The notes below the pieces were generated by a model. The model made no database searches. It was not told the DNA's origin and worked only from the letters and a program-made list of their open reading frames with translations. Positions 35,883 to 38,130 of a stretch of 41,557 nucleotides of DNA are shown here, in pieces (the first letter of the stretch is position 1; each line of letters starts with the position of its first letter). This DNA is from an uncultured Mediterraneibacter sp. (GTDB lineage: Bacteria; Bacillota; Clostridia; Lachnospirales; Lachnospiraceae). The DNA lies in assembly GCA_944376695.1 (NCBI GenBank), contig CALWDM010000022.1, positions 1 through 41,557 on the forward strand. Direction: 5' to 3'. Both the position numbers and the translations under genes were made by a program.

Positions 35883-36930
35883 GAATATCCTGATCATCTC
35901 CGCCTGCTGCATGGGCGCGGGTATCCTCGCCGCAGCGGCTGGGATCGCTGCCGGCGGCTGGTTCGGCGTCCAGATCACCCGGGACGGCATCCGCTCCGCC
36001 TCCTCCGAAACCAGGCCGTACATCCTGAAAAAGACAAAGCTGGATGACTTTTCCAGCATAAAGATCCACATCACCTCTGAGGCTGACATCGAATTCCTGC
36101 CGTCTGAGGACGGATCCGCCTACCTGGAATACACTCTGGACGGAACCGGCGCAGAACCTCTGTGGAGCGTTTCCGGCGATACCCTTACCGTCACCCAGAA
36201 AGGGATCCTGTCCGGCGGGATCTTCCTCGATATCGGATCCCTGTCCACCTTTTCTGACTCCGTAGTCCGCCTGTATCTCCCGGAAGGCACCGACTGCTCT
36301 GACGTTGAGATCAGCAGCGATTTCGGCAGCATGGATATCAGCGGCTTCACCGCAGACACACTCACTCTGAACCTGGGGTACGGAGACCTGGACATGAAAA
36401 ACATTCGCACAGACAAAGCCGATATTTATCTGGATTTCGGAGATCTGGACATGGAGGATATCACCTCCAACACCTCGGAGATCGATCTGGATTATGGAAA
36501 TCTAAGCGTAAAAGGATGCAGCTTCACCGACACAGAGATCACCGCCGCTTCCGGCAGTATCGAAACACAGGACACCACCACCGGCACTCTGGTGCTCACC
36601 GCCGAATACGGAGACGCGTCGCTGCAGGGCTTGACAGTCCGCTCGGCAGACCTGACCATAGAATCCGGCAGCCTCTATTTTGCAACCAGCGGCCTCGAGA
36701 CACTGACCGGGGTAAACGAACTCGGGGATACCGTATTCGTACTCAGCGATGCGCAGGACTACTCCTATGACCTTGTGACCGAATTCGGAGAGATCACACT
36801 CTCCGATGACATCCCCGGCAGGCTCTCCTCGCCAGACACGGGGGAAATGAGCTTCACATCAGACGGCGGCAGGGAGAAAACCATCGAATTCACCGCAGAA
36901 TACGGGGATATCCAGGTACACGAGAAGTAA
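35866..36930 (+). CDS. DUF4097 family beta-strand repeat protein
   Basis: A 354-residue protein with a short basic N-terminus, one membrane helix or uncleaved signal (IISACCMGAGILAAAAGIAAG) and an extracellular domain of repeated beta strands. The DUF4097 repeats are clear between about 150 and 260 as LNLGYGDLDMKNI, IYLDFGDLDMEDI and IDLDYGNLSVKGC, roughly 20 residues apart, likely a beta-helix or stacked sheet. Such proteins are found with PadR and DUF1700 in envelope-stress operons; the exact role is unknown. AAAGGGGGT lies before the ATG. The stop is followed at once by a giant palindrome. Confidence 0.9.
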   Translation: MKKTTRNILIISACCMGAGILAAAAGIAAGGWFGVQITRDGIRSASSETRPYILKKTKLDDFSSIKIHITSEADIEFLPSEDGSAYLEYTLDGTGAEPLWSVSGDTLTVTQKGILSGGIFLDIGSLSTFSDSVVRLYLPEGTDCSDVEISSDFGSMDISGFTADTLTLNLGYGDLDMKNIRTDKADIYLDFGDLDMEDITSNTSEIDLDYGNLSVKGCSFTDTEITAASGSIETQDTTTGTLVLTAEYGDASLQGLTVRSADLTIESGSLYFATSGLETLTGVNELGDTVFVLSDAQDYSYDLVTEFGEITLSDDIPGRLSSPDTGEMSFTSDGGREKTIEFTAEYGDIQVHEK

Positions 36931-37347
36931 ATCCTGTATTTGTGGGGGAGCCACCTTGTTGGCGAAACGTCCGAAAACAGTGAAGCGCATGTGTCAAAGA
37001 CGTATTCAGCGCGGGGGCCTTCTGATCGGATGTACGCAGAAAACCGTTCCCCTTTGATGCGCCTTTCGCGGCGGACGGGGATATGGCGACGGTGACTTGG
37101 AATAATCTGATGGTAAGACTTAAAGAAAGGAAGCGTGGCGTTAATTGTCCGGCGGATGCCTGAGGCGGAGCCGAATCTTCCGCCGGACAATTGCTTTTAG
37201 CCATGCTTCCTTTCTTTTACGTCTTTCCCAGATTACGGAACCGGAACCTGAGCCATATCCCTGCCCGCCGCGAAAACACTTTGAATTATATTGACGGTTT
37301 TCGGACGCTAAATTTACAAGGAAGGCTCCCCCACAAATCCAGATTTC
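36931..37347. repeat. Giant imperfect palindrome (branched, about 410 bases) between convergent genes
   Basis: The whole 417-base gap between the DUF4097 and ZIP stops folds on itself. Perfectly paired blocks from outside in: 36938-36952 with 37324-37338 (15 bp); 36954-36959 with 37316-37321 (6); 36968-36978 with 37297-37307 (11); 37064-37074 with 37265-37275 (11); 37078-37087 with 37252-37261 (10); 37122-37134 with 37205-37217 (13); apex 37143-37156 with 37179-37192 (14). The left arm has an extra side stem, 36985-36999 with 37052-37062. No gene is convincing inside. It could be a palindromic non-autonomous mobile element or a structured RNA; both are inference. Confidence 0.9.
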
Positions 37348-38130
37348 CTATCCTAAGGCAACATCCAGCACCATCATGATCACAAACCCCACTGCCACTC
37401 CCACGGTGCTGATATTGGAATGCTCGCCTGTCTGCGCTTCCGGTATCAGTTCTTCTACCACGACATAGATCATTGCTCCTGCAGCAAATGAAAGCAGATA
37501 CGGGAGCAGCGGCACGACAAGTCCGGTCAGAAGGATCGTAATAAACGCCGCGATCGGCTCCACGATCCCTGACAGGGCGCCGTACACAAATGACCGTCTC
37601 TTTGACAGTCCCTGGCTTTTAAGCGGCATGGAAATAATTGCTCCTTCGGGGAAGTTCTGGATCGCGATCCCAATGGAAAGTGCAAAGGCTCCCGCAAGAC
37701 TCATCAGTGTATTGTCTGTAAGCACGCCCGCAAATGTCACGCCGACAGCCATCCCTTCCGGGATATTGTGCAGAGTGACCGCAAGGACAAGCATAGTCGT
37801 TTTTTTTAAATGGGCGGGAACGCCCTCTGGTTTCTCTTCCGTATAATGCAGGTGCGGAGTCAGTGTATCGAGAACAAGCAGGAAACCCATTCCCAGCAGG
37901 AAACCCACAGCGGGCGGAAACCACGCAGCGCCTCCCTCCTGCTCCGCCATATCAATAGCCGGTATCAGAAGAGACCAGACGGATGCAGCCATCATCACAC
38001 CGGAAGCAAATCCAAGCAGCAGCTTTTCCAGCCGTCTGTCCATCTCCTTTTTCATAAAAAATACCATTGCCGAGCCCAATGCAGTCCCGGCAAATGGTAT
38101 CAATATCCCGAGCAGAGTATTCTGATTCAT
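37348..38130 (-). CDS. ZIP-family metal transporter
   Basis: A 260-residue protein of the ZIP (ZupT/GufA-like) family with about eight membrane helices. The metal-path motifs are HNIPEGMAVGV in helix 4 and NFPEGAIISMPL in helix 5; the cytoplasmic loop after helix 3 carries a short His stretch (TLTPHLHYTEE). It should import zinc, or iron or manganese, down its gradient. ATG follows GGAGGG by 5 bases. Single-gene unit with a good promoter; its stop borders the giant palindrome. Confidence 0.93.
   Translation of the reverse strand: MNQNTLLGILIPFAGTALGSAMVFFMKKEMDRRLEKLLLGFASGVMMAASVWSLLIPAIDMAEQEGGAAWFPPAVGFLLGMGFLLVLDTLTPHLHYTEEKPEGVPAHLKKTTMLVLAVTLHNIPEGMAVGVTFAGVLTDNTLMSLAGAFALSIGIAIQNFPEGAIISMPLKSQGLSKRRSFVYGALSGIVEPIAAFITILLTGLVVPLLPYLLSFAAGAMIYVVVEELIPEAQTGEHSNISTVGVAVGFVIMMVLDVALG

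Follow-up and report, generated by a model that had tools for sequence, protein, structure and literature searches.

The 417-base gap between two convergent genes in the window (the whole stretch of DNA analysed, 41,557 nucleotides) is filled by one long imperfect palindrome, which raises the question of what such a structure is and how it came to lie between two facing stop codons. Three readings were put forward in the initial annotation (a MITE-like element, a large structured RNA and a two-way transcription barrier), with a chance relic as the fallback.

The window palindrome and its limits

When folded as RNA, the 417 nt gave -208.1 and -207.8 kcal/mol on the two strands, compared to shuffle means of -130.2 and -123.4 (z of -13.0 and -12.5), and 0 of 100 shuffles was as stable. 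Either strand was predicted to form one giant hairpin with side stems in its left part, and the palindrome and its branching, as first described, are thus real. Concentric inverted repeats run from 36934-36952/37324-37342 (19 nt, 95%) inward to the stems listed in Table 1. The claim that the palindrome comes close to both stops also held, while the unit itself, initially equated with the gap, was redrawn from other copies. On the left the unit overlaps the stop codon TAA (36928-36930), whose final two bases are also the unit's first two A's, and on the right a single base separates it from the opposing stop (CTA, 37348-37350). Compared to the long form described below, the window copy is without positions 92 to 630, positions 4 to 91 being joined to 631 to 966 with five bases shared at the join, and this internal deletion explains the irregular left part of the palindrome.

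Table 1. Coordinates of the window copy, its parts and the two facing genes
Feature	Position	Strand	Remark
Whole element copy, 418 bp, internally deleted form	36929..37346	.	boundaries from 73 other loci
Left inverted end, AAATCCTGTATTTGTGGGGGAGCC	36929..36952	+	
Right inverted end (GGCTCCCCCACAAATCCAGATTT on the + strand)	37324..37346	-	
Module A remnant	36929..37015	+	reference 4-91, 79% identity
Module C, large hairpin	37011..37346	+	reference 631-966, 91% identity
Five bases common to both pieces at the deletion join	37011..37015	.	overlap of two matches
Long stem, left arm	37064..37087	+	right arm 37252-37275; 24 nt, 92%
Next inner stem, left arm	37122..37139	+	right arm 37200-37217; 18 nt, 94%
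Apical stem, left arm	37143..37156	+	right arm 37179-37192; 14 nt, 100%
Facing gene, DUF4097 protein, 354 aa	35866..36930	+	last two stop-codon bases within element
Facing gene, ZIP zinc transporter family, 260 aa	37348..38130	-	stop one base from element

A dispersed family of giant hairpins

The window palindrome is one shortened copy of a dispersed, non-coding, multicopy hairpin element and not an oddity of a single site. The nucleotide search called for initially returned dozens of copies at unrelated sites, both in the source genome of the window and in Lachnoclostridium sp. An76. With the 417-base query, the source genome gave 142 matches on many contigs (E up to 10), a figure that includes weak matches and reverse-strand matches of the palindrome arms. 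A chance palindrome or chance relic is ruled out by the folding statistics together with this copy number. The dispersed copies had no coding capacity, as judged from ORF lists.

In most copies, the sequences corresponding to positions 4-86 and 81-416 of the window copy lay several hundred bases apart, with a further hairpin between them. The longest form, 963 bp, came from An76 (L132; G043:C12:269197-270159) and consisted of three large hairpins, modules A (about 1-361), B (361-633) and C (633-966), bounded by inverted ends of roughly 23 bp near AAATCTGKATTTGYGGGGGAGCC and its reverse complement; folded as DNA, it gave a z of -19.5 (20 shuffles). An 18-base end pattern (at most 2 mismatches) was found 108 times in An76 and 0 times when reversed as a control. 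Among the 100 matches listed of these 108, 80 made up 40 head-to-head pairs and 20 were unpaired; the pairs spanned 43 to 963 bp, with ten at 341-362 bp and twelve at 949-963 bp. The shortest pair (G043:C1:520341-520383, 43 bp) is the size of an ordinary terminator hairpin, and further short spans of 107 and 126 bp were seen among the matches listed.

The window copy was also searched against 99 genomes, 58 of them of its own genus, with at most 6 candidates scored per genome. Matches better than 1e-40 were found in 8 of the 99, all within the genus and the source genome counted, so that carriers make up 8 of its 58 genomes. In a named genome collection, which may omit records close to the source genome, the exact end pattern was present only in An76, Candidatus Mediterraneibacter tabaqchaliae and M. 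stercorigallinarum.

A copy in the source genome (L170:3519-5148; G000:C4:57400-66100) is split within module B by an insert of about 1.6 kb, which includes a transposase gene of the IS110 family (406 aa); this 2.5-kb copy was considered as an autonomous parent and rejected, being the element interrupted by that gene. IS110-family transposases may prefer the element. Furthermore, at L132:3088-3098 and at the right end of L151, the first 8 bases of the element are repeated in tandem just outside it (AAATCTGT or AAATCTGG), perhaps as the trace of an earlier element end.

Element ends abut stop codons

In all, 74 loci were fetched (40 from An76 and 34 from the source genome), and the 119 element ends flanked by 300 nt or more were scored by the best facing ORF of at least 90 aa. 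The stop of the facing gene lay at an offset of -3 to 0 at 73 of the 119 ends, elsewhere between -28 and +22 at 21, and no facing ORF was found in the scanned range at the other 25. By genome, the close stops were 41/71 in An76 and 32/48 in the source genome, two counts that are not independent since orthologous sites occur in both sets. Shifting the boundaries by 10 to 250 bases left 0 to 2 such ends of 119, compared to 74 unshifted when any such ORF was counted. In a third species, M. tabaqchaliae, 40 distinct exact ends were scored: a stop lay at -2 to 0 at 24 of them and elsewhere at 10, 6 faced no ORF, and the shift control gave 0.

The commonest offset was exactly -2 (49/119 ends), where the stop was TAA in 45 of 49 cases and both of its A's were supplied by the element. 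Within offsets of -3 to +3, TGA lay at -1 in 6/10 and TAG at 0 to +2 in 6/9. This pattern is consistent with an element lying immediately after the stop codon, with which it would share the final A's. Some of the ends without a facing ORF adjoin gene starts, but the table that shows this is blurred by spurious short ORFs and was left out of the counts. The same loci contained 26 convergent pairs without an element, with gaps of -120 to 990 and one between 0 and 10, as given by simple ORF calling, which admits spurious ORFs.

It could be argued that the abutment is secondary, the element having inserted anywhere in the spacer, and the rest having been trimmed by small deletions up to the stop codons. 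The sites are old (see below) and some element ends keep 1-22 bases of spacer before the facing stop, as trimming would predict. However, an offset so uniform that 49 of 119 ends share a single value, and 26 element-free pairs in the same loci without such packing, make us regard this as an unlikely account, if one to be kept in mind.

Sites shared across species

At the window site, An76 carried a 362-bp copy in the opposite orientation, made mainly of positions 4-285 and 873-966; M. tabaqchaliae (G030) an inverted copy cut by a contig end; and G014, with 79% identity in the transporter gene, a forward copy of 594-966, also cut by a contig end. Four species thus hold different derivatives at this one site, indicating that it has long been occupied and that its content has changed.

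Both flanks of 13 of the 34 source-genome loci were found in An76 loci, the others having no flank or no match to both. The element was inverted relative to its flanks at 9 of these 13 sites and in the same orientation at 4; as the An76 loci were chosen for holding the element, this comparison is silent on occupancy. When 21 An76 flanks were instead matched to the source genome, 12 were found, and 9 of the 12 adjoined an element, a diverged element end or a mini-hairpin. One lay beside a 12-bp palindrome and two (the L120 and L138 sites) beside none. The first of these three (G000:C71:9248-9259, L353) has only the 12-base palindrome AAATCCGGATTT between facing stops where An76 has a full element. 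As a general scar, AAATCCGGATTT was rejected and is a single case: it occurs at 35 places in 16 genomes, and 0 of the 17 examined lay between facing stops.

Identities between copies at orthologous sites were 0.94, 0.84, 0.77, 0.98 and 0.86 for module A and 0.81, 0.80, 0.94 and 0.92 for module C. In a comparison that somewhat favours paralogues, since the best of many is taken, the best paralogue in each genome was closer than the orthologue in 6 of 9 module comparisons, with 2 mixed and the orthologue closest in 1 (L154/L174); only 3 of the 9 comparisons had the orthologue as the top match in the other genome. Two site pairs were mosaic (L128/L162, A 0.94 and C 0.81; L136/L163, A 0.77 and C 0.94), which suggests that parts were exchanged, while the copies at L154/L174 (A 0.98) simply descended together. 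Both the source genome (103 contigs) and An76 are drafts, in which repeat copies may have been wrongly joined. At L123/L178 and L119/L177, one flanking gene looks common to An76 and the source genome and the other differs, suggesting rearrangements across elements.

Relatives showed what else can occupy these sites; the spacers were measured from one aligned flank to the other, and a flank does not necessarily end at a stop codon. G027 had 6 nt at the L126 site. Spacers with hairpins were found in G010 (49 nt at L129, 120 nt at L149), G013 (107 nt at L146, with a long-stem hairpin) and G015 (204 nt at L143), and G014 had 78 nt with a mini version at L129 and single-module copies of 383 nt (L133) and 348 nt (L156). 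At the L123 site, where one side faces a gene start, the spacers were 137 nt in G015 and 130 nt in G005. The L138 site in G002 (L423, G002:C61:6300-8500) held 809 nt of diverged palindrome (-331 kcal/mol, with no shuffles run as a control), which suggests a parallel family or one that is far older. Against a simple picture, G015 had 664 nt, seemingly unrelated, at the L126 site; at L146 it had 4186 nt between the flanks. The G015 spacers L375, L263 and L294 have a tail in common, as well as hairpins whose stems are GTTCCCGGG-like, and perhaps represent that species' own repeat family at comparable sites.

Pairing is kept while the letters change

The pairing test covered 44 copies of module A and 47 of module C, using pairs predicted on both strands, 75 in each module. 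Watson-Crick cells amounted to 98.2% in A and 98.0% in C, compared to 87.6% and 87.9% with the 3' letters shuffled (maxima of 88.5% and 88.7%), a contrast that is overstated because the structure was derived from the same sequences and the shuffles ignore their relatedness. Sliding the partners by 1-3 positions reduced the proportion to 23-42%. Cells with a changed Watson-Crick pair numbered 260 in A and 302 in C (80 and 123 when shuffled). At least two Watson-Crick types were seen at 27/75 pairs in module A, compared to 12.6 in shuffles, and at 17/75 in module C, compared to 16.1, which is no excess.

On the shared pairs, G-T and A-C mismatches numbered 16 and 25 in A, and 37 and 24 in C. There was thus no consistent strand bias across the two modules, and an RNA made from one strand was not singled out; the balance is in keeping with a palindrome maintained as DNA, or with both strands being under selection. 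For the large structured RNA proposed initially, the kept pairing and the sharing of sites between species were in favour, and the mismatches gave it no strand. Rfam returned 0 matches at gathering score in the whole window, so a known RNA family was set aside there; the long form gave three sub-threshold matches to microRNA precursors, which were dismissed as any long hairpin gives such matches. A consensus terminator scan of 36800-37500 found none, but it allows loops of 3-8 and the apical loop here is longer.

These results bear on the idea that the structure itself, whether as a two-way barrier or as an RNA protecting or processing both facing 3' ends, is what selection has kept, in both pairing and position. 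The strength of the maintained pairing, the position directly after stop codons, the ordinary hairpin spacers of relatives at some sites and the G002 palindrome (809 bp at L138, its fold lacking a shuffle control) would all be expected. Set against them are the negative terminator scan, limited to short loops, the want of a consistent G-T over A-C bias such as selection on a one-strand RNA should leave, the gain, loss or inversion of whole modules at a site, and the absence of the element from most species of the genus (matches in 8/58 genomes). We consider this explanation improbable, although a two-way transcription barrier is in itself plausible.

Searches for a route of mobility

Among 46 two-ended copies, 0 shared at least 4 adjacent bases as a target duplication, the hallmark named at the outset, and flank matches of 2 and 3 bases occurred 2 and 2 times, compared to 2.5 and 0.7 when flanks were re-paired. 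No longer element with the same ends was found among the 40 head-to-head pairs in An76 (100 of 108 matches listed). The long form had no match in plasmid and phage sequences, and the exact end pattern was absent from viral contigs.

Y1 transposases were looked at separately. Thirty Y1_Tnp loci from 16 genomes gave no significant element match, the best E being 3.0, and no end motif even with 4 substitutions allowed, and Y1_Tnp matches occurred in 14/16 genomes, element carriers and non-carriers alike. Eleven of these loci were translated, two of them in the wrong frame; of the other nine proteins, six had a THFH motif and three NHVH, the latter being RAYT-like and found in the source genome, An76 and M. 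tabaqchaliae (L397, L413 and L407). The RAYT-like genes at L397 and L413, in the source genome and An76, are followed by their own, different short hairpin with GGGGTCAGACCCCT. Mobilisation by RAYT found no support, there being no tie between the element and RAYT genes among the loci examined.

An ordinary MITE, moved in trans by a host insertion sequence and found behind stop codons because insertions elsewhere were selected against, would account for the inverted ends, the many dispersed copies, the internal deletion derivatives and the lack of coding content. It is hard to reconcile with 0 duplications in 46 copies, with the lack of a longer same-ended element among the 40 An76 pairs (matches listed), with a long form large for this class, with sites that are mostly old and shared, and with an offset fixed to a base or two, which selection alone leaves unexplained; we give it little credence. 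Of the initial MITE-like reading, the dispersed copies and the inverted ends of about 23 bp stood, while the target duplication and, in An76, the long autonomous version did not. We do not file the element as a MITE because these two defining features were tested and not found, although it may well spread like one.

Interpretation

The explanation that we favour, and hold to be reasonably probable, is that the element is multicopy giant-hairpin DNA at long-lived intergenic sites in one gut Lachnospiraceae clade, its copies being overwritten and shortened by recombination. Copies at a site would be overwritten, wholly or partly, by other copies, through ectopic recombination or gene conversion via the shared inverted ends, in either direction; others would be shortened by hairpin deletions, and arm-to-arm template switching, selection or both would keep the arms complementary. 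Such exchange is what the draft assemblies suggest, no event having been observed. At several sites relatives have short spacers with ordinary hairpins, so that the element is likely either to act, or at least to be tolerated, as the structure at the 3' ends of the facing transcripts.

A more specific possibility is that a dedicated enzyme swaps the spacer and native terminator for a giant hairpin placed precisely at the stop codon, and subsequently inverts these cassettes or trades them between sites by recombination at the ends of roughly 23 bp, so that position is kept and content is not; this we find doubtful.

The common view is that long palindromes are unstable in bacteria, yet dozens of quasi-palindromes of 350-960 bp persist here at shared sites across species, and exchange and inversion at fixed sites make the upkeep of large palindromes testable. 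The agreement with stop codons, near to a single base, points to a rule of targeting or trimming. There is also a warning, in that strong covariation in bacterial spacers can come from DNA palindromes rather than RNA. Finally, several draft-genome contigs end in or beside copies, and the elements thus probably break assemblies.

Comparison with known systems

Among the papers listed from the open-licence PMC literature, none has a title or abstract start that describes this hairpin family. Invertible DNA segments also have inverted ends and occur in both orientations at one site, here between species only, but no promoter was found by consensus scan in the window region (36800-37500). ERIC/IRU and MITE-like repeats are large imperfect palindromes, intergenic and with variable internal segments; ERIC/IRU differ from the present element in target duplication and in size, at about 127 bp (a figure that one abstract gives for RU-1).

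The BOX repeats of Streptococcus pneumoniae, as described in PMC3049150, are likewise interspersed and of modular build, with internal modules that vary and ends that pair; they are strongly structured by prediction, enriched between convergent genes and confined to few related species. They measure 67-637 bp and are reported there to make target duplications, whereas the present element, compared by description, reaches about 963 bp in its long form, showed no duplication and has ends that abut stops. SPRITE, from the same species and the same paper (PMC3049150), is likewise a hairpin repeat with A/T-rich ends near gene 3' ends, enriched between convergent genes and with no target duplication established in that account; it has one 18-bp stem and a U-rich tract, in contrast to the large nested hairpins without a strong U tract seen here. 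REPs (PMC3733652) are intergenic palindromes lying mostly downstream of genes and often between convergent ORFs, but they measure 20-40 bp, carry GTAG or CGTC tails and are in some cases linked to RAYT transposases, compared to units of 43-963 bp with AAATC ends and no RAYT link found. We read the element as belonging with these bacterial intergenic palindromic repeats (compare BOX, SPRITE and REP), and it departs from those known to us in its size, its abutment on stop codons, and its exchange and inversion at fixed sites.
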